From the NCBI RefSeq assembly GCF_022682495.2, contig NW_026527265.1, positions 1-64,000 of the forward strand: a DNA stretch of 64,000 nt. Reading direction: 5' to 3'. Shown here one piece after another: positions 1 through 64,000 of the stretch; the stretch's first letter is position 1, and each line of letters opens with the position of its first letter. Both the position numbers and the translations under genes were made by a program. This DNA comes from Desmodus rotundus. Lineage: Eukaryota; Chordata; Mammalia; Chiroptera; Phyllostomidae. The notes below the pieces were generated by a model, which was not told the origin of the DNA, searched no databases, and saw only the letters and a program-made list of their open reading frames with translations.

Positions 1-1854
1 GCCCGAAACCGGCCAGCCGCGGCTCTGACAAAAGCCATCTCCTGGGGGCCTCCCCCCTGTCCTTCGCAGTTGGGCGGTCGGGACGGAGGGGTCTGCGCCT
101 TTCCAGCCACTTAGCCCAGTGACCCGCAGCCCGGCCCCAGAGTTCCAAGCTCCACGGAGGCAGGGGGCCTCTTATCACGGGAGGCAGGTGTCTCGCGGGG
201 CTCAAGGGACGGCGTGGGCACTCTCCAGGCGAGAGAGGGTGCCCGTGCCCCGAGAGAGCCCCGGGGAGAGCCCGAGGCCTGGCCGCAGAGGCTGCCATTG
301 CCTCCCCGGGCTCCTACCATGGGGCCTGGCCCTGCTCGCCCGAGGCCCAGGTTCACCGCAGGTGAATGCCTTTTGCGGACGCCGAGGACAGGAGGCCGCC
401 GATTCCCTCACAGAGGTGGGGCTTCGAGCTCTGGGGGACTGAGGTCGCAGCGGTCACACTCCATTTTTGGGTGGTTCCGCACAGACTGGAGGGTTGAAGC
501 GGCTGGGTCCAAGTCTGCCGCCTTGTGGCAGGGTGGGGGCGTTGCAGGCGAAGCAAGGCTCTTAGCCTCCCAGGCGGGGCACAGGGCCAGACTCCCCACG
601 GGAGAACCGGTCCGTGGACGAGGGTCCCGCCCGCCCGCCCGCCCGCCCGGACCCGCTCCACCTGGCGCGGAGCCGTGGCCGGCTCCTCTTCCCGGCCCCA
701 GGTCCCTAGTTCTTCCCTGGCACTCTGCCTCGGCGGGGGTGGGAGAGCTGCTGGGAAGTGTGGTCCACGGGAAAACGCGCGGTCCTCTGGGGTGGCAGTG
801 AGGGCTTCCCTTAACTCTGACACCGGCCCAGGGACCCTGTGAACCTGGCCTGATATCTCAAGGGGTGGGGGGGCACGTTGCCCGGAGGGATGCTCTTGGG
901 GTGGGGCCTGCTTGCGCCTGCGCGGCCCCCGCCTCCTGGCCCGAAACCACCCAGCCGCGGCTCGGACAAAAGCCATCTCCTGGGGGCCTCCCCCCTGTTC
1001 TTCCATCCGTAAAGGGGGACCCCTTTACGGATGGAAGAACAGGGGGATCTTCGCAGTGGTGGGGACGGGACGGAGGGGTCTGCGGGGTTTGCCGCCACGT
1101 AGGCCAGTTGCTCGCACCCCGGCCCCATGGTGTCCCGGCTCCATGGAGGAGTTGGGCCGCTTATGGCGGGATGCAGGCGTCCTGCGGGGGTCAAGGGACG
1201 GCGTGGGCACTCCCCGGGCGAGAGAGGGCGCCTGGGACCCGAGAGAGCACCCGGGAAAATGCCCAGCCCTGGCCCCCATGGCTCCAGTGGCCTCCCCAGG
1301 CTCCTGCCGCGGGGCCTGGTCCCGCTCACCTGGGCCCAGGTTCTCCGCAGGTGAATGCCTTTTGCGGACACCAAGGACCACAGGCCGCGGATCCCTTCAC
1401 GGGGAGGGGGGGGTTCGAGCTCTGTGGGACCCAGGTCGCATCGCACACGGTCCCTTCTCGCAAAGTTCAGCCCAGACTTTAGAGAGTAGAAGCGTCTCGG
1501 TGCAAGTTTACCGCCTCGGGGCAGGGTGGGGCCGTTTGAGCCGAGAAAGACTCTTAGCCCCCCAGGCAGGTCTCAGGCCCAAGACCCCCCCGCGAGACCC
1601 GGTCCCTGGGCGTGGGTCCGGCCTGCCCGGGCCCCCCCCCCCGCCCCCCGCCCCCCCCCCCCCCCGCCTGGCCCGGAACCGTGGCCGGCCCCTCTTCCCG
1701 GCCCCAGGTCCCTAGTTCTTCCCCGGCACTCTGCCTCCGGCGGGGTGGGAGACGGGCTGGCAAGTGTGGTCCACGGGAAAAGGATCGGACCTCTGGGTGG
1801 CGGGGAGAGCTTCCAGTTCCACGGGACACGACCCCAGGGACCCTGTGAAGCAGG
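1..1854 (+). repeat. Unit U1 (5'-truncated by window)
   Basis: The first 87 bp of the unit lie outside the window. Half A 1-848, half B 849-1854, palindrome 991-1046, C tract C11/C6/C15 at 1632-1665, (CCCG)6. It has four single-base insertions absent from nearly all other units: a G at about 788-792, a C at about 927-931, a G at 1084-1087 and a G at 1129-1130. Confidence 0.95.
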
Positions 1855-2010
1855 CCTGATATGTCCGGGGTGGGGCCCGTTGCCCCGAGGGAGGCTTCTG
1901 GTGGGGCTGCCTGCCCTGAGCCTGCCGGGTCCCGCGTCTTGGCCCGAAACCGGCCAGCCGCGGCTCTGACAAAAGCCATCTCCTGGGGGCCTCCCCCCTG
2001 TCCTTCGCAG

Positions 2011-2302
2011 TTGGGCGGTCGGGACGGAGGGGTCTGCGCCTTTCCAGCCACTTAGCCCAGTGACCCGCAGCCCGGCCCCAGAGTTCCAAGCTCCACGGAG
2101 GCAGGGGGCCTCTTATCACGGGAGGCAGGTGTCTCGCGGGGCTCAAGGGACGGCGTGGGCACTCTCAAGGCGAGAGAGGGTGCCCGTGCCCCGAGAGAGC
2201 CCCGGGGAGAGCCCGAGGCCTGGCCGCAGAGGCTGCCATTGCCTCCCCGGGCTCCTACCATGGGGCCTGGCCCTGCTCGCCCGAGGCCCAGGTTCACCGC
2301 AG
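2011..2302 (+). other. Splice-signal-bracketed 292-bp segment, half A
   Basis: A pyrimidine-rich stretch ending TCCTTCGCAG (2010) resembles a 3' splice site. The segment ends CGCAG followed by GTGAAT (from 2303), which resembles a 5' splice site. The equivalent segment in U1 is 70-361. The same arrangement and the same 292-bp length occur in half B (2997-3288). The donor-like site is altered in U14 (25456) and in U17, U20 and U26. No transcript evidence is available; in a GC-rich repeat this could be chance. Confidence 0.25.
2098..2112 (+). promoter_or_regulatory. CTCF-core-like motif, half A only
   Basis: GAGGCAGGGGGCCTC matches the information-rich middle of the CTCF consensus (S-Y-A-G-R-K-G-G-C, nine of nine positions) but not the preceding CCA or the following GCT. 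It recurs once per unit at the same half-A position, for example 157-171 in U1. The half-B counterpart is not conserved. Repeated CTCF sites are known in the DXZ4 and D4Z4 macrosatellites, but a partial match by eye is weak evidence. Confidence 0.25.
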
Positions 2303-2567
2303 GTGAATGCCTTTTGCGGACGCCGAGGACAGGAGGCCGCCGATTCCCTCACAGAGGTGGGGCTTCGAGCTCTGGGGGACTGAGGTCGCAGCGGTCACAC
2401 TCCATTTTTGGGTGGTTCCGCACAGACTGGAGGGTTGAAGCGGCTGGGTCCAAGTCTGCCGCCTTGTGGCAGGGTGGGGGGCGTTGCAGGCGAAGCAAGG
2501 CTCTTAGCCTCCCAGGCGGGGCACAGGGCCAGACTCCCCACGGGAGAACCGGTCCGTGGACGAGGGT

Positions 2568-2591
2568 CCCGCCCGCCCGCCCGCCCGCCCG
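2568..2591. repeat. (CCCG)n microsatellite in half A
   Basis: Six tandem CCCG copies in U1-U4 and five in later units. U8 has an extra C inside its array, near 14163-14167. The copy number separates the first four units from the rest. The tract is CpG-rich, and its complementary G-rich strand could form G-quadruplexes. Confidence 0.9.
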
Positions 2592-2930
2592 GACCCGCTC
2601 CACCTGGCGCGGAGCCGTGGCCGGCTCCTCTTCCCGGCCCCAGGTCCCTAGTTCTTCCCTGGCACTCTGCCTCGGCGGGGGTGGGAGAGCTGCTGGGAAG
2701 TGTGGTCCACGGGAAAACGCGCGGTCCTCTGGGTGGCAGTGAGGGCTTCCCTTAACTCTGACACCGGCCCAGGGACCCTGTGAACCTGGCCTGATATCTC
2801 AAGGGGTGGGGGGGCACGTTGCCCGGAGGGATGCTCTTGGGGTGGGGCCTGCTTGCGCCTGCGCGGCCCCGCCTCCTGGCCCGAAACCACCCAGCCGCGG
2901 CTCGGACAAAAGCCATCTCCTGGGGGCCTC

Positions 2931-2986
2931 CCCCCTGTTCTTCCATCCGTAAAGGGGGACCCCTTTACGGATGGAAGAACAGGGGG
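2931..2986. repeat. Perfect 56-bp inverted repeat (27-bp arms), once per unit
   Basis: Left arm 2931-2957, 2-bp centre (GA) 2958-2959, right arm 2960-2986; the arms are exact reverse complements. It is present in every half B, unchanged in each copy I read. Starts: 991, 2931, 4871, 6811, 8722, 10651, 12584, 14514, 16427, 18356, 20286, 22219, 24150, 26079, 27991, 29921, 31849, 33782, 35712, 37640, 39553, 41476, 43411, 45345, 47275, 49203, 51116, 53045, 54974, 56905, 58835, 60765, 62696. The homologous place in half A has only CCCCCCTGTCCTTCGCAG, so about 50 bp was added in half B. It could extrude as a cruciform or fold as an RNA hairpin. It is rather short for a canonical pre-miRNA, and no function is established. 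Confidence 0.97.
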
Positions 2987-2996
2987 ATCTTCGCAG

Positions 2997-3288
2997 TGGT
3001 GGGGACGGGACGGAGGGGTCTGCGGGTTTGCCGCCACGTAGGCCAGTTGCTCGCACCCCGGCCCCATGTGTCCCGGCTCCATGGAGGAGTTGGGCCGCTT
3101 ATGGCGGGATGCAGGCGTCCTGCGGGGGTCAAGGGACGGCGTGGGCACTCCCCGGGCGAGAGAGGGCGCCTGGGACCCGAGAGAGCACCCGGGAAAATGC
3201 CCAGCCCTGGCCCCCATGGCTCCAGTGGCCTCCCCAGGCTCCTGCCGCGGGGCCTGGTCCCGCTCACCTGGGCCCAGGTTCTCCGCAG
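2997..3288 (+). other. Splice-signal-bracketed 292-bp segment, half B
   Basis: Collinear with the half-A segment and the same length. The acceptor-like CTTCGCAG is kept, but its pyrimidine tract is interrupted by the purine-rich right arm of the palindrome, which should weaken it. The donor-like CGCAG/GTGAAT is intact. If the repeat is transcribed on the plus strand, half A is the better candidate exon. Confidence 0.2.
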
Positions 3289-3570
3289 GTGAATGCCTTT
3301 TGCGGACACCAAGGACCACAGGCCGCGGATCCCTTCACGGGGAGGGGGGGGGTTCGAGCTCTGTGGGACCCAGGTCGCATCGCACACGGTCCCTTCTCGC
3401 AAAGTTCAGCCCAGACTTTAGAGAGTAGAAGCGTCTCGGTGCAAGTTTACCGCCTCGGGGCAGGGTGGGGCCGTTTGAGCCGAGAAAGACTCTTAGCCCC
3501 CCAGGCAGGTCTCAGGCCCAAGACCCCCCCGCGAGACCCGGTCCCTGGGCGTGGGTCCGGCCTGCCCGGG

Positions 3571-3606
3571 CCCCCCCCCCCGCCCCCCGCCCCCCCCCCC
3601 CCCCCC
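3571..3606. repeat. Length-variable C tract in half B (C11-G-C6-G-C17 here)
   Basis: The tract keeps the pattern C-run, G, C6, G, C-run in most units. The first run is 10-12 and the last 11-18 bases. Variants are C-T-C8 in U5, C6-T-C3 in U18 and U24, and C11-GG-C7 in U22. It accounts for most length differences between units. The minus strand is therefore a long interrupted G run with strong G-quadruplex potential. Exact lengths should be treated with caution because homopolymers are error-prone in assembly. Confidence 0.88.
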
Positions 3607-3795
3607 GCCTGGCCCGGAACCGTGGCCGGCCCCTCTTCCCGGCCCCAGGTCCCTAGTTCTTCCCCGGCACTCTGCCTCCGGCGGGGTGGGAGACGGGCTG
3701 GCAAGTGTGGTCCACGGGAAAAGGATCGGACCTCTGGGTGGCGGGGAGAGCTTCCAGTTCCACGGGACACGACCCCAGGGACCCTGTGAAGCAGG

Positions 3796-5735
3796 CCTGA
3801 TATGTCCGGGGTGGGGCCCGTTGCCCCGAGGGAGGCTTCTGGTGGGGCTGCCTGCCCTGAGCCTGCCGGGTCCCGCGTCTTGGCCCGAAACCGGCCAGCC
3901 GCGGCTCTGACAAAAGCCATCTCCTGGGGGCCTCCCCCCTGTCCTTCGCAGTTGGGCGGTCGGGACGGAGGGGTCTGCGCCTTTCCAGCCACTTAGCCCA
4001 GTGACCCGCAGCCCGGCCCCAGAGTTCCAAGCTCCACGGAGGCAGGGGGCCTCTTATCACGGGAGGCAGGTGTCTCGCGGGGCTCAAGGGACGGCGTGGG
4101 CACTCTCCAGGCGAGAGAGGGTGCCCGTGCCCCGAGAGAGCCCCGGGGAGAGCCCGAGGCCTGGCCGCAGAGGCTGCCATTGCCTCCCCGGGCTCCTACC
4201 ATGGGGCCTGGCCCTGCTCGCCCGAGGCCCAGGTTCACCGCAGGTGAATGCCTTTTGCGGACGCCGAGGACAGGAGGCCGCCGATTCCCTCACAGAGGTG
4301 GGGCTTCGAGCTCTGGGGGACTGAGGTCGCAGCGGTCACACTCCATTTTTGGGTGGTTCCGCACAGACTGGAGGGTTGAAGCGGCTGGGTCCAAGTCTGC
4401 CGCCTTGTGGCAGGGTGGGGGCGTTGCAGGCGAAGCAAGGCTCTTAGCCTCCCAGGCGGGGCACAGGGCCAGACTCCCCACGGGAGAACCGGTCCGTGGA
4501 CGAGGGTCCCGCCCGCCCGCCCGCCCGCCCGGACCCGCTCCACCTGGCGCGGAGCCGTGGCCGGCTCCTCTTCCCGGCCCCAGGTCCCTAGTTCTTCCCT
4601 GGCACTCTGCCTCGGCGGGGGTGGGAGAGCTGCTGGGAAGTGTGGTCCACGGGAAAACGCGCGGTCCTCTGGGTGGCAGTGAGGGCTTCCCTTAACTCTG
4701 ACACCGGCCCAGGGACCCTGTGAACCTGGCCTGATATCTCAAGGGGTGGGGGGGCACGTTGCCCGGAGGGATGCTCTTGGGGTGGGGCCTGCTTGCGCCT
4801 GCGCGGCCCCGCCTCCTGGCCCGAAACCACCCAGCCGCGGCTCGGACAAAAGCCATCTCCTGGGGGCCTCCCCCCTGTTCTTCCATCCGTAAAGGGGGAC
4901 CCCTTTACGGATGGAAGAACAGGGGGATCTTCGCAGTGGTGGGGACGGGACGGAGGGGTCTGCGGGTTTGCCGCCACGTAGGCCAGTTGCTCGCACCCCG
5001 GCCCCATGTGTCCCGGCTCCATGGAGGAGTTGGGCCGCTTATGGCGGGATGCAGGCGTCCTGCGGGGGTCAAGGGACGGCGTGGGCACTCCCCGGGCGAG
5101 AGAGGGCGCCTGGGACCCGAGAGAGCACCCGGGAAAATGCCCAGCCCTGGCCCCCATGGCTCCAGTGGCCTCCCCAGGCTCCTGCCGCGGGGCCTGGTCC
5201 CGCTCACCTGGGCCCAGGTTCTCCGCAGGTGAATGCCTTTTGCGGACACCAAGGACCACAGGCCGCGGATCCCTTCACGGGGAGGGGGGGGTTCGAGCTC
5301 TGTGGGACCCAGGTCGCATCGCACACGGTCCCTTCTCGCAAAGTTCAGCCCAGACTTTAGAGAGTAGAAGCGTCTCGGTGCAAGTTTACCGCCTCGGGGC
5401 AGGGTGGGGCCGTTTGAGCCGAGAAAGACTCTTAGCCCCCCAGGCAGGTCTCAGGCCCAAGACCCCCCCGCGAGACCCGGTCCCTGGGCGTGGGTCCGGC
5501 CTGCCCGGGCCCCCCCCCCCGCCCCCCGCCCCCCCCCCCCCCCCCCGCCTGGCCCGGAACCGTGGCCGGCCCCTCTTCCCGGCCCCAGGTCCCTAGTTCT
5601 TCCCCGGCACTCTGCCTCCGGCGGGGTGGGAGACGGGCTGGCAAGTGTGGTCCACGGGAAAAGGATCGGACCTCTGGGTGGCGGGGAGAGCTTCCAGTTC
5701 CACGGGACACGACCCCAGGGACCCTGTGAAGCAGG
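3796..5735 (+). repeat. Unit U3
   Basis: 1,940 bp. Half B from 4730, palindrome 4871. C tract C11/C6/C18, the longest in the window. (CCCG)6 subfamily, with the ancestral-looking G in GCAGAGGCTGCC. Confidence 0.96.
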
Positions 5736-13441: not shown

Positions 13442-15355
13442 CCTGATATGTCCGGGGTGGGGCCCGTTGCCCCGAGGGAGGCTTCTGGTGGGGCTGCCTG
13501 CCCTGAGCCTGCCGGGTCCCGCGTCTTGGCCCGAAACCGGCCAGCCGCGGCTCTGACAAAAGCCATCTCCTGGGGGCCTCCCCCCTGTCCTTCGCAGTTG
13601 GGCGGTCGGGACGGAGGGGTCTGCGCCTTTCCAGCCACTTAGCCCAGTGACCCGCAGCCCGGCCCCAGAGTTCCAAGCTCCACGGAGGCAGGGGGCCTCT
13701 TATCACGGGAGGCAGGTGTCTCGCGGGGCTCAAGGGACGGCGTGGGCACTCTCCAGGCGAGAGAGGGTGCCCGTGCCCCGAGAGAGCCCCGGGGAGAGCC
13801 CGAGGCCTGGCCGCAGAGACTGCCATTGCCTCCCCGGGCTCCTACCATGGGGCCTGGCCCTGCTCGCCCGAGGCCCAGGTTCACCGCAGGTGAATGCCTT
13901 TTGCGGACGCCGAGGACAGGAGGCCGCCGATTCCCTCACAGAGGTGGGGCTTCGAGCTCTGGGGGACTGAGGTCGCAGCGGTCACACTCCATTTTTGGGT
14001 GGTTCCGCACAGACTGGAGGGTTGAAGCGGCTGGGTCCAAGTCTGCCGCCTTGTGGCAGGGTGGGGGCGTTGCAGGCGAAGCAAGGCTCTTAGCCTCCCA
14101 GGCGGGGCACAGGGCCAGACTCCCCACGGGAGAACCGGTCCGTGGACGAGGGTCCCGCCCGCCCCGCCCGCCCGGACCCGCTCCACCTGGCGCGGAGCCT
14201 TGGCCGGCTCCTCTTCCCGGCCCCAGGTCCCTAGTTCTTCCCTGGCACTCTCCCTCGGCGGGGGTGGGAGAGCTGCTGGGAAGTGTGGTCCACGGGAAAA
14301 CGCGCGGTCCTCTGGGTGGCAGTGAGGGCTTCCCTTAACTCTGACACCGGCCCAGGGACCCTGTGAACCTGGCCTGATATCTCAAGGGGTGGGGGGGCAC
14401 GTTGCCCGGAGGGATGCTCTTGGGGTGGGGCCTGCTTGCGTCTGCGCGGCCCCGCCTCCTGGCCCGAAACCACCCAGCCGCGGCTCGGACAAAAGCCATC
14501 TCCTGGGGGCCTCCCCCCTGTTCTTCCATCCGTAAAGGGGGACCCCTTTACGGATGGAAGAACAGGGGGATCTTCGCAGTGGTGGGGACGGGACGGAGGG
14601 GTCTGCGGGTTTGCCGCCACGTAGGCCAGTTGCTCGCACCCCGGCCCCATGTGTCCCGGCTCCATGGAGGAGTTGGGCCGCTTATGGCGGGATGCAGGCG
14701 TCCTGCGGGGGTCAAGGGACGGCGTGGGCACTCCCCGGGCGAGAGAGGGCGCCTGGGACCCGAGAGAGCACCCGGGAAAATGCCCAGCCCTGGCCCCCAT
14801 GGCTCCAGTGGCCTCCCCAGGCTCCTGCCGCGGGGCCTGGTCCCGCTCACCTGGGCCCAGGTTCTCCGCAGGTGAATGCCTTTTGCGGACACCAAGGACC
14901 ACAGGCCGCGGATCCCTTCACGGGGAGGGGGGGGGTTCGAGCTCTGTGGGACCCAGGTCGCATCGCACACGGTCCCTTCTCGCAAAGTTCAGCCCAGACT
15001 TTAGAGAGTAGAAGTGTCTCGGTGCAAGTTTACCGCCTCGGGGCAGGGTGGGGCCGTTTGAGCCGAGAAAGACTCTTAGCCCCCCAGGCAGGTCTCAGGC
15101 CCAAGACCCCCCAGGGAGACCCGGTCCCTGGGCCCGGGTCCAGCCTACCCGGGGCCTCCCCCCCCCACCTGGCCCGGAAACATGGCCGGCCCCTCTTCCC
15201 GGCCCCAGGTCCCTAGTTCTTCCCCGGCACTCTGCCTCCGGCGGGGTGGGAGACGGGCTGGCAAGTGTGGTCCACGGGAAAAGGATCGGACCTCTGGGTG
15301 GCGGGGAGAGCTTCCAGTTCCACGGGACACGACCCCAGGGACCCTGTGAAGCAGG
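13442..15355 (+). repeat. Unit U8 (short allele, subtype S2; starts hexamer 1)
   Basis: 1,914 bp. Half B from 14373 is 983 bp, palindrome 14514. Short-allele segment 15105-15184 has the S2 form (CCTACCCGGGGCCT then C9). It also has GAGCCTTGGCC, ACTCTCCCTCGG, CTTGCGTCTGCG and GAAGTGTCTCGG, a linked haplotype seen again in U20 and U26. Extra C in the CCCG array; 9-G run. Confidence 0.95.
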
Positions 15356-17284
15356 CCTGATATGTCCGGGGTGGGGCCCGTTGCCCCGAGGGAGGCTTCT
15401 GGTGGGGCTGCCTGCCCTGAGCCTGCCGGGTCCCGCGTCTTGGCCCGAAACCGGCCAGCCGCGGCTCTGACAAAAGCCATCTCCTGGGGGCCTCCCCCCT
15501 GTCCTTCGCAGTTGGGCGGTCGGGACGGAGGGGTCTGCGCCTTTCCAGCCACTTAGCCCAGTGACCCGCAGCCCGGCCCCAGAGTTCCAAGCTCCACGGA
15601 GGCAGGGGGCCTCTTATCACGGGAGGCAGGTGTCTCGCGGGGCTCAAGGGACGGCGTGGGCACTCTCCAGGCGAGAGAGGGTGCCCGTGCCCCGAGAGAG
15701 CCCCGGGGAGAGCCCGAGGCCTGGCCGCAGAGACTGCCATTGCCTCCCCGGGCTCCTACCATGGGGCCTGGCCCTGCTCGCCCGAGGCCCAGGTTCACCG
15801 CAGGTGAATGCCTTTTGCGGACGCCGAGGACAGGAGGCCGCCGATTCCCTCACAGAGGTGGGGCTTCGAGCTCTGGGGGACTGAGGTCGCAGCGGTCACA
15901 CTCCATTTTTGGGTGGTTCCGCACAGACTGGAGGGTTGAAGCGGCTGGGTCCAAGTCTGCCGCCTTGTGGCAGGGTGGGGGCGTTGCAGGCGAAGCAAGG
16001 CTCTTAGCCTCCCAGGCGGGGCACAGGGCCAGACTCCCCACGGGAGAACCGGTCCGTGGACGAGGGTCCCGCCCGCCCGCCCGCCCGGACCCGCTCCACC
16101 TGGCGCGGAGCCGTGGCCGGCTCCTCTTCCCGGGCCCAGGTCCCTAGTTCTTCCCTGGCACTCTGCCTCGGCGGGGGTGGGAGAGCTGCTGGGAAGTGTG
16201 GTCCACGGGAAAACGCGCGGTCCTCTGGGTGGCAGTGAGGGCTTCCCTTAACTCTGACACCGGCCCAGGGACCCTGTGAACCTGGCCTGATATCTCAAGG
16301 GGTGGGGGGGCACGTTGCCCGGAGGGATGCTCTTGGGGTGGGGCCTGCTTGCGCCTGCGCGGCCCCGCCTCCTGGCCCGAAACCACCCAGCCGCGGCTCG
16401 GACAAAAGCCATCTCCTGGGGGCCTCCCCCCTGTTCTTCCATCCGTAAAGGGGGACCCCTTTACGGATGGAAGAACAGGGGGATCTTCGCAGTGGTGGGG
16501 ACGGGACGGAGGGGTCTGCGGGTTTGCCGCCACGTAGGCCAGTTGCTCGCACCCCGGCCCCATGTGTCCCGGCTCCATGGAGGAGTTGGGCCGCTTATGG
16601 CGGGATGCAGGCGTCCTGCGGGGGTCAAGGGACGGCGTGGGCACTCCCCGGGCGAGAGAGGGCGCCTGGGACCCGAGAGAGCACCCGGGAAAATGCCCAG
16701 CCCTGGCCCCCATGGCTCCAGTGGCCTCCCCAGGCTCCTGCCGCGGGGCCTGGTCCCGCTCACCTGGGCCCAGGTTCTCCGCAGGTGAATGCCTTTTGCG
16801 GACACCAAGGACCACAGGCCGCGGATCCCTTCACGGGGAGGGGGGGGTTCGAGCTCTGTGGGACCCAGGTCGCATCGCACACGGTCCCTTCTCGCAAAGT
16901 TCAGCCCAGACTTTAGAGAGTAGAAGCGTCTCGGTGCAAGTTTACCGCCTCGGGGCAGGGTGGGGCCGTTTGAGCCGAGAAAGACTCTTAGCCCCCCAGG
17001 CAGGTCTCAGGCCCAAGACCCCCCCGCGAGACCCGGTCCCTGGGCGTGGGTCCGGCCTGCCCGGGCCCCCCCCCCGCCCCCCGCCCCCCCCCCCCGCCTG
17101 GCCCGGAACCGTGGCCGGCCCCTCTTCCCGGCCCCAGGTCCCTAGTTCTTCCCCGGCACTCTGCCTCAGGCGGGGTGGGAGACGGGCTGGCAAGTGTGGT
17201 CCACGGGAAAAGGATCGGACCTCTGGGTGGCGGGGAGAGCTTCCAGTTCCACGGGACACGACCCCAGGGACCCTGTGAAGCAGG
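15356..17284 (+). repeat. Unit U9
   Basis: Half B from 16286, palindrome 16427. C tract C10/C6/C12. GGGCCCAGG variant. Private A at 17168 (CTGCCTCAGG). Confidence 0.95.
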
Positions 17285-44273: not shown

Positions 44274-46203
44274 CCTGATATGTCCGGGGTGGGGCCCGTT
44301 GCCCCGAGGGAGGCTTCTGGTGGGGCTGCCTGCCCTGAGCCTGCCGGGTCCCGCGTCTTGGCCCGAAACCGGCCAGCCGCGGCTCTGACAAAAGCCATCT
44401 CCTGGGGGCCTCCCCCCTGTCCTTCGCAGTTGGGCGGTCGGGACGGAGGGGTCTGCGCCTTTCCAGCCACTTAGCCCAGTGACCCGCAGCCCGGCCCCAG
44501 AGTTCCAAGCTCCACGGAGGCAGGGGGCCTCTTATCACGGGAGGCAGGTGTCTCGCGGGGCTCAAGGGACGGCGTGGGCACTCTCCAGGCGAGAGAGGGT
44601 GCCCGTGCCCCGAGAGAGCCCTGGGGAGAGCCCGAGGCCTGGCCGCAGAGACTGCCATTGCCTCCCCGGGCTCCTACCATGGGGCCTGGCCCTGCTCGCC
44701 CGAGGCCCAGGTTCACCGCAGGTGAATGCCTTTTGCGGACGCCGAGGACAGGAGGCCGCCGATTCCCTCACAGAGGTGGGGCTTCGAGCTCTGGGGGACT
44801 GAGGTCGCAGCGGTCACACTCCATTTTTGGGTGGTTCCGCACAGACTGGAGGGTTGAAGCGGCTGGGTCCAAGTCTGCCGCCTTGTGGCAGGGTGGGGGC
44901 GTTGCAGGCGAAGCAAGGCTCTTAGCCTCCCAGGCGGGGCACAGGGCCAGACTCCCCACGGGAGAACCGGTCCGTGGACGAGGGTCCCGCCCGCCCGCCC
45001 GCCCGGACCCGCTCCACCTGGCGCGGAGCCGTGGCCGGCTCCTCTTCCCGGCCCCAGGTCCCTAGTTCTTCCCTGGCACTCTGCCTCGGCGGGGGTGGGA
45101 GAGCTGCTGGGAAGTGTGGTCCACGGGAAAACGCGCGGTCCTCTGGGTGGCAGTGAGGGCTTCCCTTAACTCTGACACCGGCCCAGGGACCCTGTGAACC
45201 TGGCCTGATATCTCAAGGGGTGGGGGGGCACGTTGCCCGGAGGGATGCTCTTGGGGTGGGGCCTGCTTGCGCCTGCGCGGCCCCGCCTCCTGGCCCGAAA
45301 CCACCCAGCCGCGGCTCGGACAAAAGCCATCTCCTGGGGGCCTCCCCCCTGTTCTTCCATCCGTAAAGGGGGACCCCTTTACGGATGGAAGAACAGGGGG
45401 ATCTTCGCAGTGGTGGGGACGGGACGGAGGGGTCTGCGGGTTTGCCGCCACGTAGGCCAGTTGCTCGCACCCCGGCCCCATGTGTCCCGGCTCCATGGAG
45501 GAGTTGGGCCGCTTATGGCGGGATGCAGGCGTCCTGCGGGGGTCAAGGGACGGCGTGGGCACTCCCCGGGCGAGAGAGGGCGCCTGGGACCCGAGAGAGC
45601 ACCCGGGAAAATGCCCAGCCCTGGCCCCCATGGCTCCAGTGGCCTCCCCAGGCTCCTGCCGCGGGGCCTGGTCCCGCTCACCTGGGCCCAGGTTCTCCGC
45701 AGGTGAATGCCTTTTGCGGACACCAAGGACCACAGGCCGCGGATCCCTTCACGGGGAGGGGGGGGTTCGAGCTCTGTGGGACCCAGGTCGCATCGCACAC
45801 GGTCCCTTCTCGCAAAGTTCAGCCCAGACTTTAGAGAGTAGAAGCGTCTCGGTGCAAGTTTACCGCCTCGGGGCAGGGTGGGGCCGTTTGAGCCGAGAAA
45901 GACTCTTAGCCCCCCAGGCAGGTCTCAGGCCCAAGACCCCCCCGCGAGACCCGGTCCCTGGGCGTGGGTCCGGCCTGCCCGGGCCCCCCTCCCGCCCCCC
46001 GCCCCCCCCCCCCCGCCTGGCCCGGAACCGTGGCCGGCCCCTCTTCCCGGCCCCAGGTCCCTAGTTCTTCCCCGGCACTCTGCCTCCGGCGGGGTGGGAG
46101 ACGGGCTGGCAAGTGTGGTCCACGGGAAAAGGATCGGACCTCTGGGTGGCGGGGAGAGCTTCCAGTTCCACGGGACACGACCCCAGGGACCCTGTGAAGC
46201 AGG
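44274..46203 (+). repeat. Unit U24
   Basis: Half B from 45204, palindrome 45345. C tract C6-T-C3/C6/C13 (T at 45990). T at 44622. Counterpart of U18. Confidence 0.95.
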
Positions 46204-48131
46204 CCTGATATGTCCGGGGTGGGGCCCGTTGCCCCGAGGGAGGCTTCTGGTGGGGCTGCCTGCCCTGAGCCTGCCGGGTCCCGCGTCTTGGCCCGAAACC
46301 GGCCAGCCGCGGCTCTGACAAAAGCCATCTCCTGGGGGCCTCCCCCCTGTCCTTCGCAGTTGGGCGGTCGGGACGGAGGGGTCTGCGCCTTTCCAGCCAC
46401 TTAGCCCAGTGACCCGCAGCCCGGCCCCAGAGTTCCAAGCTCCACGGAGGCAGGGGGCCTCTTATCACGGGAGGCAGGTGTCTCGCGGGGCTCAAGGGAC
46501 GGCGTGGGCACTCTCCAGGCGAGAGAGGGTGCCCGTGCCCCGAGAGAGCCCCGGGGAGAGCCCGAGGCCTGGCCGCAGAGACTGCCATTGCCTCCCCGGG
46601 CTCCTACCATGGGGCCTGGCCCTGCTCGCCCGAGGCCCAGGTTCACCGCAGGTGAATGCCTTTTGCGGACGCCGAGGACAGGAGGCCGCCGATTCCCTCA
46701 CAGAGGTGGGGCTTCGAGCTCTGGGGGACTGAGGTCGCAGCGGTCACACTCCATTTTTGGGTGGTTCCGCACAGACTGGAGGGTTGAAGCGGCTGGGTCC
46801 AAGTCTGCCGCCTTGTGGCAGGGTGGGGGCGTTGCAGGCGAAGCAAGGCTCTTAGCCTCCCAGGCGGGGCACAGGGCCAGACTCCCCACGGGAGAACCGG
46901 TCCGTGGACGAGGGTCCCGCCCGCCCGCCCGCCCGGACCCGCTCCACCTGGCGCGGAGCCGTGGCCGGCTCCTCTTCCCGGCCCCAGGTCCCTAGTTCTT
47001 CCCTGGCACTCTGCCTCGGCGGGGGTGGGAGAGCTGCTGGGAAGTGTGGTCCACGGGAAAACGCGCGGTCCTCTGGGTGGCAGTGAGGGCTTCCCTTAAC
47101 TCTGACACCGGCCCAGGGACCCTGTGAACCTGGCCTGATATCTCAAGGGGTGGGGGGGCACGTTGCCCGGAGGGATGCTCTTGGGGTGGGGCCTGCTTGC
47201 GCCTGCGCGGCCCCGCCTCCTGGCCCGAAACCACCCAGCCGCGGCTCGGACAAAAGCCATCTCCTGGGGGCCTCCCCCCTGTTCTTCCATCCGTAAAGGG
47301 GGACCCCTTTACGGATGGAAGAACAGGGGGATCTTCGCAGTGGTGGGGACGGGACGGAGGGGTCTGCGGGTTTGCCGCCACGTAGGCCAGTTGCTCGCAC
47401 CCCGGCCCCATGTGTCCCGGCTCCATGGAGGAGTTGGGCCGCTTATGGCGGGATGCAGGCGTCCTGCGGGGGTCAAGGGACGGCGTGGGCACTCCCCGGG
47501 CGAGAGAGGGCGCCTGGGACCCGAGAGAGCACCCGGGAAAATGCCCAGCCCTGGCCCCCATGGCTCCAGTGGCCTCCCCAGGCTCCTGCCGCGGGGCCTG
47601 GTCCCGCTCACCTGGGCCCAGGTTCTCCGCAGGTGAATGCCTTTTGCGGACACCAAGGACCACAGGCCGCGGATCCCTTCACGGGGAGGGGGGGGTTCGA
47701 GCTCTGTGGGACCCAGGTCGCATCGCACACGGTCCCTTCTCGCAAAGTTCAGCCCAGACTTTAGAGAGTAGAAGCGTCTCGGTGCAAGTTTACCGCCTCG
47801 GGGCAGGGTGGGGCCGTTTGAGCCGAGAAAGACTCTTAGCCCCCCAGGCAGGTCTCAGGCCCAAGACCCCCCCGCGAGACCCGGTCCCTGGGCGTGGGTC
47901 CGGCCTGCCCGGGCCCCCCCCCCGCCCCCCGCCCCCCCCCCCGCCTGGCCCGGAACCGTGGCCGGCCCCTCTTCCCGGCCCCAGGTCCCTAGTTCTTCCC
48001 CGGCACTCTGCCTCCGGCGGGGTGGGAGACGGGCTGGCAAGTGTGGTCCACGGGAAAAGGATCGGACCTCTGGGTGGCGGGGAGAGCTTCCAGTTCCACG
48101 GGACACGACCCCAGGGACCCTGTGAAGCAGG
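46204..48131 (+). repeat. Unit U25
   Basis: 1,928 bp. Half B from 47134, palindrome 47275. C tract C10/C6/C11. Counterpart of U19. Confidence 0.95.
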
Positions 48132-50044
48132 CCTGATATGTCCGGGGTGGGGCCCGTTGCCCCGAGGGAGGCTTCTGGTGGGGCTGCCTGCCCTGAGCCT
48201 GCCGGGTCCCGCGTCTTGGCCCGAAACCGGCCAGCCGCGGCTCTGACAAAAGCCATCTCCTGGGGGCCTCCCCCCTGTCCTTCGCAGTTGGGCGGTCGGG
48301 ACGGAGGGGTCTGCGCCTTTCCAGCCACTTAGCCCAGTGACCCGCAGCCCGGCCCCAGAGTTCCAAGCTCCACGGAGGCAGGGGGCCTCTTATCACGGGA
48401 GGCAGGTGTCTCGCGGGGCTCAAGGGACGGCGTGGGCACTCTCCAGGCGAGAGAGGGTGCCCGTGCCCCGAGAGAGCCCCGGGGAGAGCCCGAGGCCTGG
48501 CCGCAGAGACTGCCATTGCCTCCCCGGGCTCCTACCATGGGGCCTGGCCCTGCTCGCCCGAGGCCCAGGTTCACCGCCGTTGAATGCCTTTTGCGGACGC
48601 CGAGGACAGGAGGCCGCCGATTCCCTCACAGAGGTGGGGCTTCGAGCTCTGGGGGACTGAGGTCGCAGCGGTCACACTCCATTTTTGGGTGGTTCCGCAC
48701 AGACTGGAGGGTTGAAGCGGCTGGGTCCAAGTCTGCCGCCTTGTGGCAGGGTGGGGGCATTGCAGGCGAAGCAAGGCTCTTAGCCTCCCAGGCGGGGCAC
48801 AGGGCCAGACTCCCCACGGGAGAACCGGTCCGTGGACGAGGGTCCCGCCCGCCCGCCCGCCCGGACCCGCTCCACCTGGCGCGGAGCCTTGGCCGGCTCC
48901 TCTTCCCGGCCCCAGGTCCCTAGTTCTTCCCTGGCACTCTCCCTCGGCGGGGGTGGGAGAGCTGCTGGGAAGTGTGGTCCACGGGAAAACGCGCGGTCCT
49001 CTGGGTGGCAGTGAGGGCTTCCCTTAACTCTGACACCGGCCCAGGGACCCTGTGAACCTGGCCTGATATCTCAAGGGGTGGGGGGGCACGTTGCCCGGAG
49101 GGATGCTCTTGGGGTGGGGCCTGCTTGCGTCTGCGCGGCCCCGCCTCCTGGCCCGAAACCACCCAGCCGCGGCTCGGACAAAAGCCATCTCCTGGGGGCC
49201 TCCCCCCTGTTCTTCCATCCGTAAAGGGGGACCCCTTTACGGATGGAAGAACAGGGGGATCTTCGCAGTGGTGGGGACGGGACGGAGGGGTCTGCGGGTT
49301 TGCCGCCACGTAGGCCAGTTGCTCGCACCCCGGCCCCATGTGTCCCGGCTCCATGGAGGAGTTGGGCCGCTTATGGCGGGATGCAGGCGTCCTGCGGGGG
49401 TCAAGGGACGGCGTGGGCACTCCCCGGGCGAGAGAGGGCGCCTGGGACCCGAGAGAGCACCCGGGAAAATGCCCAGCCCTGGCCCCCATGGCTCCAGTGG
49501 CCTCCCCAGGCTCCTGCCGCGGGGCCTGGTCCCGCTCACCTGGGCCCAGGTTCTCCGCAGGTGAATGCCTTTTGCGGACACCAAGGACCACAGGCCGCGG
49601 ATCCCTTCACGGGGAGGGGGGGGGTTCGAGCTCTGTGGGACCCAGGTCGCATCGCACACGGTCCCTTCTCGCAAAGTTCAGCCCAGACTTTAGAGAGTAG
49701 AAGTGTCTCGGTGCAAGTTTACCGCCTCGGGGCAGGGTGGGGCCGTTTGAGCCGAGAAAGACTCTTAGCCCCCCAGGCAGGTCTCAGGCCCAAGACCCCC
49801 CAGGGAGACCCGGTCCCTGGGCCCGGGTCCAGCCTACCCGGGGCCTCCCCCCCCCACCTGGCCCGGAAACATGGCCGGCCCCTCTTCCCGGCCCCAGGTC
49901 CCTAGTTCTTCCCCGGCACTCTGCCTCCGGCGGGGTGGGAGACGGGCTGGCAAGTGTGGTCCACGGGAAAAGGATCGGACCTCTGGGTGGCGGGGAGAGC
50001 TTCCAGTTCCACGGGACACGACCCCAGGGACCCTGTGAAGCAGG
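48132..50044 (+). repeat. Unit U26 (short allele, S2; starts hexamer 4)
   Basis: 1,913 bp. Half B from 49062, palindrome 49203, short-allele segment 49794-49873. CCGCCGTTGAA at about 48574-48584. Counterpart of U20. Confidence 0.95.
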
Positions 50045-51973
50045 CCTGATATGTCCGGGGTGGGGCCCGTTGCCCCGAGGGAGGCTTCTGGTGGGGCTGC
50101 CTGCCCTGAGCCTGCCGGGTCCCGCGTCTTGGCCCGAAACCGGCCAGCCGCGGCTCTGACAAAAGCCATCTCCTGGGGGCCTCCCCCCTGTCCTTCGCAG
50201 TTGGGCGGTCGGGACGGAGGGGTCTGCGCCTTTCCAGCCACTTAGCCCAGTGACCCGCAGCCCGGCCCCAGAGTTCCAAGCTCCACGGAGGCAGGGGGCC
50301 TCTTATCACGGGAGGCAGGTGTCTCGCGGGGCTCAAGGGACGGCGTGGGCACTCTCCAGGCGAGAGAGGGTGCCCGTGCCCCGAGAGAGCCCCGGGGAGA
50401 GCCCGAGGCCTGGCCGCAGAGACTGCCATTGCCTCCCCGGGCTCCTACCATGGGGCCTGGCCCTGCTCGCCCGAGGCCCAGGTTCACCGCAGGTGAATGC
50501 CTTTTGCGGACGCCGAGGACAGGAGGCCGCCGATTCCCTCACAGAGGTGGGGCTTCGAGCTCTGGGGGACTGAGGTCGCAGCGGTCACACTCCATTTTTG
50601 GGTGGTTCCGCACAGACTGGAGGGTTGAAGCGGCTGGGTCCAAGTCTGCCGCCTTGTGGCAGGGTGGGGGCGTTGCAGGCGAAGCAAGGCTCTTAGCCTC
50701 CCAGGCGGGGCACAGGGCCAGACTCCCCACGGGAGAACCGGTCCGTGGACGAGGGTCCCGCCCGCCCGCCCGCCCGGACCCACTCCACCTGGCGCGGAGC
50801 CGTGGCCGGCTCCTCTTCCCGGGCCCAGGTCCCTAGTTCTTCCCTGGCACTCTGCCTCGGCGGGGGTGGGAGAGCTGCTGGGAAGTGTGGTCCACGGGAA
50901 AACGCGCGGTCCTCTGGGTGGCAGTGAGGGCTTCCCTTAACTCTGACACCGGCCCAGGGACCCTGTGAACCTGGCCTGATATCTCAAGGGGTGGGGGGGC
51001 ACGTTGCCCGGAGGGATGCTCTTGGGGTGGGGCCTGCTTGCGCCTGCGCGGCCCCGCCTCCTGGCCCGAAACCACCCAGCCGCGGCTCGGACAAAAGCCA
51101 TCTCCTGGGGGCCTCCCCCCTGTTCTTCCATCCGTAAAGGGGGACCCCTTTACGGATGGAAGAACAGGGGGATCTTCGCAGTGGTGGGGACGGGACGGAG
51201 GGGTCTGCGGGTTTGCCGCCACGTAGGCCAGTTGCTCGCACCCCGGCCCCATGTGTCCCGGCTCCATGGAGGAGTTGGGCCGCTTATGGCGGGATGCAGG
51301 CGTCCTGCGGGGGTCAAGGGACGGCGTGGGCACTCCCCGGGCGAGAGAGGGCGCCTGGGACCCGAGAGAGCACCCGGGAAAATGCCCAGCCCTGGCCCCC
51401 ATGGCTCCAGTGGCCTCCCCAGGCTCCTGCCGCGGGGCCTGGTCCCGCTCACCTGGGCCCAGGTTCTCCGCAGGTGAATGCCTTTTGCGGACACCAAGGA
51501 CCACAGGCCGCGGATCCCTTCACGGGGAGGGGGGGGTTCGAGCTCTGTGGGACCCAGGTCGCATCGCACACGGTCCCTTCTCGCAAAGTTCAGCCCAGAC
51601 TTTAGAGAGTAGAAGCGTCTCGGTGCAAGTTTACCGCCTCGGGGCAGGGTGGGGCCGTTTGAGCCGAGAAAGACTCTTAGCCCCCCAGGCAGGTCTCAGG
51701 CCCAAGACCCCCCCGCGAGACCCGGTCCCTGGGCGTGGGTCCGGCCTGCCCGGGCCCCCCCCCCGCCCCCCGCCCCCCCCCCCCGCCTGGCCCGGAACCG
51801 TGGCCGGCCCCTCTTCCCGGCCCCAGGTCCCTAGTTCTTCCCCGGCACTCTGCCTCCGGCGGGGTGGGAGACGGGCTGGCAAGTGTGGTCCACGGGAAAA
51901 GGATCGGACCTCTGGGTGGCGGGGAGAGCTTCCAGTTCCACGGGACACGACCCCAGGGACCCTGTGAAGCAGG
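50045..51973 (+). repeat. Unit U27
   Basis: Half B from 50975, palindrome 51116. C tract C10/C6/C12. GGGCCCAGG variant, A at 50782. Counterpart of U21. Confidence 0.95.
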
Positions 51974-53902
51974 CCTGATATGTCCGGGGTGGGGCCCGTT
52001 GCCCCGAGGGAGGCTTCTGGTGGGGCTGCCTGCCCTGAGCCTGCCGGGTCCCGCGTCTTGGCCCGAAACCGGCCAGCCGCGGCTCTGACAAAAGCCATCT
52101 CCTGGGGGCCTCCCCCCTGTCCTTCGCAGTTGGGCGGTCGGGACGGAGGGGTCTGCGCCTATCCAGCCACTTAGCCCAGTGACCCGCAGCCCGGCCCCAG
52201 AGTTCCAAGCTCCACGGAGGCAGGGGGCCTCTTATCACGGGAGGCAGGTGTCTCGCGGGGCTCAAGGGACGGCGTGGGCACTCTCCAGGCGAGAGAGGGT
52301 GCCCGTGCCCCGAGAGAGCCCCGGGGAGAGCCCGAGGCCTGGCCGCAGAGACTGCCATTGCCTCCCCGGGCTCCTACCATGGGGCCTGGCCCTGCTCGCC
52401 CGAGGCCCAGGTTCACCGCAGGTGAATGCCTTTTGCGGACGCCGAGGACAGGAGGCCGCCGATTCCCTCACAGAGGTGGGGCTTCGAGCTCTGGGGGACT
52501 GAGGTCGCAGCGGTCACACTCCATTTTTGGGTGGTTCCGCACAGACTGGAGGGTTGAAGCGGCTGGGTCCAAGTCTGCCGCCTTGTGGCAGGGTGGGGGC
52601 GTTGCAGGCGAAGCAAGGCTCTTAGCCTCCCAGGCGGGGCACAGGGCCAGACTCCCCACGGGAGAACCGGTCCGTGGACGAGGGTCCCGCCCGCCCGCCC
52701 GCCCGGACCCGCTCCACCTGGCGCGGAGCCGTGGCCGGCTCCTCTTCCCGGGCCCAGGTCCCTAGTTCTTCCCTGGCACTCTGCCTCGGCGGGGGTGGGA
52801 GAGCTGCTGGGAAGTGTGGTCCACGGGAAAACGCGCGGTCCTCTGGGTGGCAGTGAGGGCTTCCCTTAACTCTGACACCGGCCCAGGGACCCTGTGAACC
52901 TGGCCTGATATCTCAAGGGGTGGGGGGGCACGTTGCCCGGAGGGATGCTCTTGGGGTGGGGCCTGCTTGCGCCTGCGCGGCCCCGCCTCCTGGCCCGAAA
53001 CCACCCAGCCGCGGCTCGGACAAAAGCCATCTCCTGGGGGCCTCCCCCCTGTTCTTCCATCCGTAAAGGGGGACCCCTTTACGGATGGAAGAACAGGGGG
53101 ATCTTCGCAGTGGTGGGGACGGGACGGAGGGGTCTGCGGGTTTGCCGCCACGTAGGCCAGTTGCTCGCACCCCGGCCCCATGTGTCCCGGCTCCATGGAG
53201 GAGTTGGGCCGCTTATGGCGGGATGCAGGCGTCCTGCGGGGGTCAAGGGACGGCGTGGGCACTCCCCGGGCGAGAGAGGGCGCCTGGGACCCGAGAGAGC
53301 ACCCGGGAAAATGCCCAGCCCTGGCCCCCATGGCTCCAGTGGCCTCCCCAGGCTCCTGCCGCGGGGCCTGGTCCCGCTCACCTGGGCCCAGGTTCTCCGC
53401 AGGTGAATGCCTTTTGCGGACACCAAGGACCACAGGCCGCGGATCCCTTCACGGGGAGGGGGGGGTTCGAGCTCTGTGGGACCCAGGTCGCATCGCACAC
53501 GGTCCCTTCTCGCAAAGTTCAGCCCAGACTTTAGAGAGTAGAAGCGTCTCGGTGCAAGTTTACCGCCTCGGGGCAGGGTGGGGCCGTTTGAGCCGAGAAA
53601 GACTCTTAGCCCCCCAGGCAGGTCTCAGGCCCAAGACCCCCCCGCGAGACCCGGTCCCTGGGCGTGGGTCCGGCCTGCCCGGGCCCCCCCCCCGCCCCCC
53701 GCCCCCCCCCCCCGCCTGGCCCGGAACCGTGGCCGGCCCCTCTTCCCGGCCCCAGGTCCCTAGTTCTTCCCCGGCACTCTGCCTCCGGCGGGGTGGGAGA
53801 CGGGCTGGCAAGTGTGGTCCACGGGAAAAGGATCGGACCTCTGGGTGGCGGGGAGAGCTTCCAGTTCCACGGGACACGACCCCAGGGACCCTGTGAAGCA
53901 GG
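51974..53902 (+). repeat. Unit U28
   Basis: Half B from 52904, palindrome 53045. C tract C10/C6/C12. A at 52161 (GCGCCTATCC), shared with U22 and U33. It is the clean counterpart of U22 and lacks all of that unit's indels. Confidence 0.95.
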
Positions 53903-61624: not shown

Positions 61625-63553
61625 CCTGATATGTCCGGGGTGGGGCCCGTTGCCCCGAGGGAGGCTTCTGGTGGGGCTGCCTGCCCTGAGCCTGCCGGGT
61701 CCCGCGTCTTGGCCCGAAACCGGCCAGCCGCGGCTCTGACAAAAGCCATCTCCTGGGGGCCTCCCCCCTGTCCTTCGCAGTTGGGCGGTCGGGACGGAGG
61801 GGTCTGCGCCTATCCAGCCACTTAGCCCAGTGACCCGCAGCCCGGCCCCAGAGTTCCAAGCTCCACGGAGGCAGGGGGCCTCTTATCACGGGAGGCAGGT
61901 GTCTCGCGGGGCTCAAGGGACGGCGTGGGCACTCTCCAGGCGAGAGAGGGTGCCCGTGCCCCGAGAGAGCCCCGGGGAGAGCCCGAGGCCTGGCCGCAGA
62001 GACTGCCATTGCCTCCCCGGGCTCCTACCATGGGGCCTGGCCCTGCTCGCCCGAGGCCCAGGTTCACCGCAGGTGAATGCCTTTTGCGGACGCCGAGGAC
62101 AGGAGGCCGCCGATTCCCTCACAGAGGTGGGGCTTCGAGCTCTGGGGGACTGAGGTCGCAGCGGTCACACTCCATTTTTGGGTGGTTCCGCACAGACTGG
62201 AGGGTTGAAGCGGCTGGGTCCAAGTCTGCCGCCTTGTGGCAGGGTGGGGGCGTTGCAGGCGAAGCAAGGCTCTTAGCCTCCCAGGCGGGGCACAGGGCCA
62301 GACTCCCCACGGGAGAACCGGTCCGTGGACGAGGGTCCCGCCCGCCCGCCCGCCCGGACCCGCTCCACCTGGCGCGGAGCCGTGGCCGGCTCCTCTTCCC
62401 GGGCCCAGGTCCCTAGTTCTTCCCTGGCACTCTGCCTCGGCGGGGGTGGGAGAGCTGCTGGGAAGTGTGGTCCACGGGAAAACGCGCGGTCCTCTGGGTG
62501 GCAGTGAGGGCTTCCCTTAACTCTGACACCGGCCCAGGGACCCTGTGAACCTGGCCTGATATCTCAAGGGGTGGGGGGGCACGTTGCCCGGAGGGATGCT
62601 CTTGGGGTGGGGCCTGCTTGCGCCTGCGCGGCCCCGCCTCCTGGCCCGAAACCACCCAGCCGCGGCTCGGACAAAAGCCATCTCCTGGGGGCCTCCCCCC
62701 TGTTCTTCCATCCGTAAAGGGGGACCCCTTTACGGATGGAAGAACAGGGGGATCTTCGCAGTGGTGGGGACGGGACGGAGGGGTCTGCGGGTTTGCCGCC
62801 ACGTAGGCCAGTTGCTCGCACCCCGGCCCCATGTGTCCCGGCTCCATGGAGGAGTTGGGCCGCTTATGGCGGGATGCAGGCGTCCTGCGGGGGTCAAGGG
62901 ACGGCGTGGGCACTCCCCGGGCGAGAGAGGGCGCCTGGGACCCGAGAGAGCACCCGGGAAAATGCCCAGCCCTGGCCCCCATGGCTCCAGTGGCCTCCCC
63001 AGGCTCCTGCCGCGGGGCCTGGTCCCGCTCACCTGGGCCCAGGTTCTCCGCAGGTGAATGCCTTTTGCGGACACCAAGGACCACAGGCCGCGGATCCCTT
63101 CACGGGGAGGGGGGGGTTCGAGCTCTGTGGGACCCAGGTCGCATCGCACACGGTCCCTTCTCGCAAAGTTCAGCCCAGACTTTAGAGAGTAGAAGCGTCT
63201 CGGTGCAAGTTTACCGCCTCGGGGCAGGGTGGGGCCGTTTGAGCCGAGAAAGACTCTTAGCCCCCCAGGCAGGTCTCAGGCCCAAGACCCCCCCGCGAGA
63301 CCCGGTCCCTGGGCGTGGGTCCGGCCTGCCCGGGCCCCCCCCCCCGCCCCCCGCCCCCCCCCCCGCCTGGCCCGGAACCGTGGCCGGCCCCTCTTCCCGG
63401 CCCCAGGTCCCTAGTTCTTCCCCGGCACTCTGCCTCCGGCGGGGTGGGAGACGGGCTGGCAAGTGTGGTCCACGGGAAAAGGATCGGACCTCTGGGTGGC
63501 GGGGAGAGCTTCCAGTTCCACGGGACACGACCCCAGGGACCCTGTGAAGCAGG
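61625..63553 (+). repeat. Unit U33
   Basis: Half B from 62555, palindrome 62696. C tract C11/C6/C11. GGGCCCAGG variant; A at 61812, as in U22 and U28, so U32-U33 look like hexamer positions 2-3. Confidence 0.95.
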
Positions 63554-64000
63554 CCTGATATGTCCGGGGTGGGGCCCGTTGCCCCGAGGGAGGCTTCTGG
63601 TGGGGCTGCCTGCCCTGAGCCTGCCGGGTCCCGCGTCTTGGCCCGAAACCGGCCAGCCGCGGCTCTGACAAAAGCCATCTCCTGGGGGCCTCCCCCCTGT
63701 CCTTCGCAGTTGGGCGGTCGGGACGGAGGGGTCTGCGCCTTTCCAGCCACTTAGCCCAGTGACCCGCAGCCCGGCCCCAGAGTTCCAAGCTCCACGGAGG
63801 CAGGGGGCCTCTTATCACGGGAGGCAGGTGTCTCGCGGGGCTCAAGGGACGGCGTGGGCACTCTCCAGGCGAGAGAGGGTGCCCGTGCCCCGAGAGAGCC
63901 CCGGGGAGAGCCCGAGGCCTGGCCGCAGAGACTGCCATTGCCTCCCCGGGCTCCTACCATGGGGCCTGGCCCTGCTCGCCCGAGGCCCAGGTTCACCGCA
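63554..64000 (+). repeat. Unit U34 (3'-truncated by window)
   Basis: Only the first 447 bp of half A are present. It matches the (CCCG)5-era consensus with GCAGAGACTGCC. The window ends at CACCGCA, inside the donor-like element, so the array continues beyond it. Confidence 0.95.

Follow-up and report, generated by a model that had tools for sequence, protein, structure and literature searches.

The 64-kb stretch of DNA analyzed here (hereafter the window) is one uninterrupted head-to-tail array of a GC-rich repeat, in which each unit of about 1.93 kb consists of two diverged halves. We favor, with somewhat better than even confidence, its interpretation as a noncoding mammalian macrosatellite of heterochromatin, the mammal most likely being a mustelid, and within the mustelids most likely as the 1.9-kb BamHI repeat of Mustela or a close cousin; this family assignment rests on length, GC content and one restriction site, not on a comparison of sequences. 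Mammalian origin as such is suggested by the kind of sequence together with the match to the literature. The periodicity and the two-half structure of the window are far beyond chance, and the strict alternation of the halves, with about 79% identity between halves and 99% between units, fits the vertebrate-type macrosatellite that an earlier note, made from the letters alone, had proposed.

Anchor-based segmentation resolved the window from end to end into 33 units of 1,913–1,941 bp followed by 363 bp of a 34th (table 1), in agreement with the 33 uninterrupted intervals of 1.91–1.94 kb counted previously. The unit boundaries were set by an anchor present in both halves, and in the chosen phase the first unit is 3 bases short. 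Autocorrelation over the whole window peaks at 1,929 bp, and again near multiples of this value. As the array runs past both ends of the window, 33 units represent a lower bound on the total copy number. The units are highly homogeneous: Their mean pairwise identity is 99.08% (range 97.27–100%, gaps counted, 528 pairs), the mean number of differences per pair is 11.1 (range 0–28), and seven of the 528 pairs are identical. Overall GC content is 69.7% and remains flat along the window (69.0–70.4% in 2-kb steps), with a CpG observed/expected ratio of 0.60.

Table 1. Coordinates of the array, its example units and the elements discussed in the text, as positions in the window
Feature	Coordinates	Strand	Remarks
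Tandem array	1..64000	+	33 units plus 363 bp of a 34th; the array continues past the window on either side
Example unit (unit 2)	1939..3879	+	1,941 bp, from segmentation
Half A of unit 2	1939..2875	+	937 bp; without palindrome and without BamHI site
Half B of unit 2	2876..3879	+	1,004 bp; contains the palindrome and a BamHI site
Palindrome, half B of unit 2	2931..2986	.	56 bp: 27-bp arms, 2-bp center
BamHI site of unit 2	3327..3332	.	Single site of the unit, in half B; half A has CGATTC there
C-rich tract, half B of unit 2	3570..3609	+	Length varies among units
Short unit type, example	13526..15439	+	Linked differences clustered at alignment columns 1602–1695
Exact duplication, copy 1	32488..40920	+	8,433 bp; lag 11,563 bp, equal to six units
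Exact duplication, copy 2	44051..52483	+	8,433 bp

Each unit comprises a half A followed by a half B, and this ABAB order is kept strictly over all 67 halves (34 A and 33 B). The two halves of unit 2 match at 737 of 930 aligned positions (79.2%) and have GC contents of 69.8% and 70.1%, so that the two diverged, collinear halves per unit described in the earlier note are confirmed; its figure of about 0.95 kb per half holds as an average of what are in fact unequal halves, their lengths across the array being 926–938 and 980–1,004 bp by anchor spacing. The strand complementary to the C-rich tract of half B carries G-quadruplex-like runs. Computed BamHI sites occur once per unit and only in half B (n = 33, spacing 1,911–1,940 bp); by a hand estimate, about 0.65 sites would be expected by chance in a unit of this size at 70% GC, and one site per unit is thus a weak clue when taken alone.

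Both strands contain long frames free of stops, as a GC content of 70% predicts, and the repeat appears to be noncoding in the ORFs examined. None of ten longer ORFs from units 2 and 3 matched Pfam at the cut-off (best E = 0.29), substitutions between A and B are spread evenly over the codon positions (61, 68, and 64), and nine of the ten indels between the halves break the frame, not being multiples of three. No tRNA gene and no Rfam family at gathering score was found in the window. Protein searches nevertheless recovered relatives, strong hits among them: Part of a half-B ORF retrieved 50 clusters, a half-A ORF 11, and a 16-member alignment, for which scoring covered the 7,992 candidates with the most shared words, at least 78. 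The distinct clusters number at least 82, and all derive from ENA contigs. All 82 related proteins match the translated unit (E up to 1), and 38 of them require two or more frames to do so, a count taken at the permissive E of 1, where some of the switches may be due to chance; together this argues for a large family of related repeats in those contigs, which presumably represent animal host DNA. Six of the 82, including P0005 and P0053 with weak matches, match both strands of the unit, to which misassembled contigs may contribute. When ten of the related ENA proteins were compared with Pfam, nine yielded nothing at E ≤ 0.1. For P0034 there was one weak match, at E = 0.0077 and with 16.8 bits against a cut-off of 23, to a T-antigen domain of viruses; it overlaps a tail outside the repeat and was taken as chance. 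Given the lack of Pfam matches at the cut-off, the frame-breaking indels and the frame-jumping relatives, we reject protein coding, and the related "proteins" are most simply explained as chance ORFs on repeat DNA. By the criteria applied here, a half-to-half junction is spanned by just ten of the 82 related ORFs, in mixed order (two clearly A-to-B, three clearly B-to-B, five unclear), and we therefore draw little from them on dimer order in the relatives.

The main structural difference between the halves is a 56-bp palindrome, which is unchanged in 33 of 33 B halves and missing from half A. Its single strand is predicted to form a far better fold than shuffled sequences do (z = −6.65). Its left arm contains the motif TCTTC, a second copy of which lies one base past the 3' end of the palindrome; in the alignment, removing 49 bp, from the first TCTTC up to the second, yields the half A form save for one base. 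Among the 82 related proteins, 26 were caught by a pattern matching the 5' flank of the palindrome and read by eye: Both arms, imperfect ones included, are kept in 16, the palindrome is partly deleted in six, and it is cleanly gone in four. Outside this pattern, it is lost in P0015 and kept in some form in P0029, P0031, P0032, and P0043, which also span the site. The right arm is retained in four A-like relatives (P0062–P0065), indicating that half A probably lacks the palindrome through loss; a conversion from B into A would leave the same picture. An apparent reduction of variation around the palindrome was not robust (27 merged events, p = 0.013; 60 sites, p = 0.16) and was dropped. It is conceivable, if improbable, that the palindrome plays an active part in the satellite: As a site of breakage through cruciform formation, it would be excised or trimmed time and again in some copies while staying exact in others, and it would drive the unequal exchange through which monomers gave way to the AB dimer.

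Signs of turnover are also seen at the level of whole units. A six-unit lag separates two exact copies of a block of 8,433 bp (table 1), with units 18–21 identical to units 24–27, and further, shorter exact repeats (2,954 bp) occur at other lags. The short units 4, 8, 14, 20, and 26 (1,913–1,916 bp) have in common a dense cluster of differences, along with a deletion within the C-rich tract. The duplicated blocks may well be the trace of recent unequal block exchange. An assembler that had expanded a shorter array could likewise leave an exact duplication over 8,433 bp; we consider such an artifact very improbable, as most units differ from one another by the margins given above and as related repeats are present in many other contigs, and it could affect the copy number of the repeat, not its existence. 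GC-rich kilobase tandem repeats are also known from the terminal repeats of rhadinovirus-like viruses. The proposal that the window is such a viral array, for which this resemblance speaks, is scarcely credible given 64 kb of repeat alone, a dimer of diverged halves, and three scans of viral contigs that yielded no relative in a collection that may cover animal herpesviruses incompletely; one viral-contig scan gave 44 pattern matches, none of which was confirmed.

The unit could instead belong to a regulatory macrosatellite comparable to DXZ4 or D4Z4, in which the array binds CTCF or bears genes and has a defined role on its chromosome. Its kilobase length, high GC content and CpG ratio would suit this reading, as would two CTCF-like 12-mers that recur in almost all halves (132 matches, with 69.9 expected from shuffled sequence), but all 132 lie one mismatch away from the CTCF core, and the excess reduces to two sequences copied along with the array. 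Arrays of the D4Z4/DUX kind carry a double-homeobox ORF in each unit, and RS447 has a 4.7-kb unit with a USP17 ORF; the ten ORFs of units 2 and 3 gave no Pfam match above the cut-off, neither to a homeodomain nor to a peptidase, and the present unit of 1.93 kb sets RS447 aside. The CTCF motif of DXZ4, as given in the available part of its description (PMC8662614), reaches a best score of 17 of 34 in unit 2, which is at shuffle level (16–20 in 40 base-composition shuffles), and we regard the regulatory reading as quite unlikely. Nor does the CENP-B box core TTCGNNNNANNCGGG occur as an exact match in the 64 kb (0.74 expected by chance); unit 2 holds one match with a single mismatch. An undescribed GC-rich macrosatellite from a different mammal, which would resemble the mustelid repeats in no more than size, GC content and BamHI periodicity, is a possibility that we hold tentatively and well short of even chances. 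It would accord with the absence of any match to the repeat among the plasmids, phages, viral contigs and prokaryote genome contigs searched, with the failure to find six oligomers of the unit in the literature searched, and with the restriction of the 82 related clusters to ENA contigs. These DNA collections contain no mammalian genomes, and their lack of a match accordingly says little. Against an undescribed family stands the coincidence of length, GC content, monomer size and BamHI periodicity, all four, with published mustelid repeats.

Assuming a mustelid BamHI repeat, its history might be pictured as follows. An ancestral monomer of about 1 kb with a BamHI site and a palindrome would have been duplicated, and the copies would have diverged into A and B. 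Half A would then have lost its BamHI site and, in the array of the window, also the palindrome, either because the two TCTTC copies slipped against each other or through conversion; loss of the site from half A would convert a ladder of about 1 kb into one of 1.9 kb. The AB dimer may subsequently have spread, its uniformity being kept through unequal exchange and gene conversion, as suggested by the exact six-unit duplication. The sequence of duplication, divergence and amplification as a dimer had already been put forward in the earlier note; the ABAB order and the identities of 79% between halves and 99% between units fit it, whereas the temporal order itself, duplicated first and amplified later, is our inference. 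The repeat would serve as bulk heterochromatin, pericentromeric or on short arms, and not as a gene; both the heterochromatic state and the chromosomal location are drawn from what is published on the presumed relative and not from the sequence of the window. Since the DXZ4 CTCF motif does not rise above shuffles and the CENP-B core is absent, no functional motif backs a more specific role, and bulk heterochromatin represents the default.

Should the assignment to the mustelid BamHI repeat be correct, the window would resolve to the base, over 64 kb, the structure of a satellite which the accessible parts of the literature describe from restriction and hybridization work of the 1980s. It would also suggest why the BamHI length is 1.9 kb: A site once present in each monomer of about 1 kb has been lost from half A. 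A uniform array with an invariant palindrome, which is present, trimmed or lost in relatives, also offers a natural system for the behavior of palindromes in satellite turnover. The earlier note had called the repeat an unrecognized, distinct family. This is not supported and its unrecognized status is doubtful, as a 1.9-kb BamHI repeat of mink and Martes macrosatellites of about 1 kb and about 70% GC are on record, all compared here by description from the available parts of the sources; the window is otherwise ordinary satellite DNA, apparently without genes. Beyond the cited papers, no 1.93-kb unit of this kind appeared in those portions of the literature that were accessible to the search.

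According to the accessible text of the sources, the 1.9-kb BamHI repeats of the European mink lie in pericentromeric heterochromatin and in additional arms (PMC7696698, citing Lushnikova et al. 1989). In the stone marten, S18H (1,041 bp, 70.61% GC) shows homology to a BamHI repeat of 1,080 bp from Mustela putorius and is located on two centromeres, and S22H (986 bp, 69.68% GC) is found at centromeres, on one short arm and on Yq (PMC9957230, available part). Two observations in the same part of that study count against the mustelid reading: The Martes macrosatellites investigated did not map to the GC-enriched heterochromatin near some short-arm ends, and four tested probes, S22H included, gave no signal in cat (PMC9957230).

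Set beside known tandem repeats, the window fits none of the cervid satellites as given in the accessible part of their description, satI, satIII, and satIV having 44–55% GC and satII 60–68% GC with a unit of about 0.7 kb (PMC7288315). With DXZ4 it shares a GC-rich kilobase tandem unit, which measures 3.0 kb in human and about 4.6 kb in felids in the available text (PMC8662614) as opposed to 1.93 kb here. Judged from a title cited in PMC7763226, the BamHI-dimer of Bsp repeats of the fox is a carnivore tandem repeat described as a BamHI dimer. S18H, S22H, and the 1,080-bp repeat of M. putorius resemble the window, by description only, in their tandem units of about 1 kb and their GC content of about 70%; S18H and S22H are reported in the accessible text as monomers of about 1 kb, whereas the window is built of a 1.93-kb dimer (PMC9957230). 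Consensus sequences for this group are deposited in GenBank as OQ261720–OQ261730. The European mink repeat, again by description only and from the available part of the source, has the same BamHI fragment length of 1.9 kb as the array analyzed here (PMC7696698).

The linked differences of the short unit type (units 4, 8, 14, 20, and 26) are clustered in a patch of ~95 bp, alignment columns 1602–1695, which in these units is accompanied by a deletion in the C-rich, length-variable tract of half B. The patch looks as if it had been copied from a diverged relative; judged by eye, it is more than a plain copy of half A.

Example of a short unit carrying the divergent patch
Feature	Position
Unit with the ~95-bp patch	13526-15439

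Among the ENA protein clusters, most simply chance ORFs on related repeat DNA, P0003, P0029, and P0036 start out resembling half B and come to resemble half A at roughly one common place, which suggests that recombinants between the half types exist among the relatives. P0027, P0029, P0035, and P0049 each have some parts matching one strand of the unit and other parts matching the complementary one, a pattern that inverted copies or misassembled contigs would give. The repeat similarity of two further clusters, P0031 and P0034, stops at an identical point, beyond which both continue with a lysine-rich and then an unrelated reading; this is perhaps a retroposon insertion or an array edge. The terminal reading of P0043 resembles a translated Illumina/Nextera adapter, pointing to short-read contigs.

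Between halves A and B of unit 2 (1939-3879), 53 of the 193 substitutions are C/G swaps and 73 are transitions, a transition share below the usual level for mammalian DNA.
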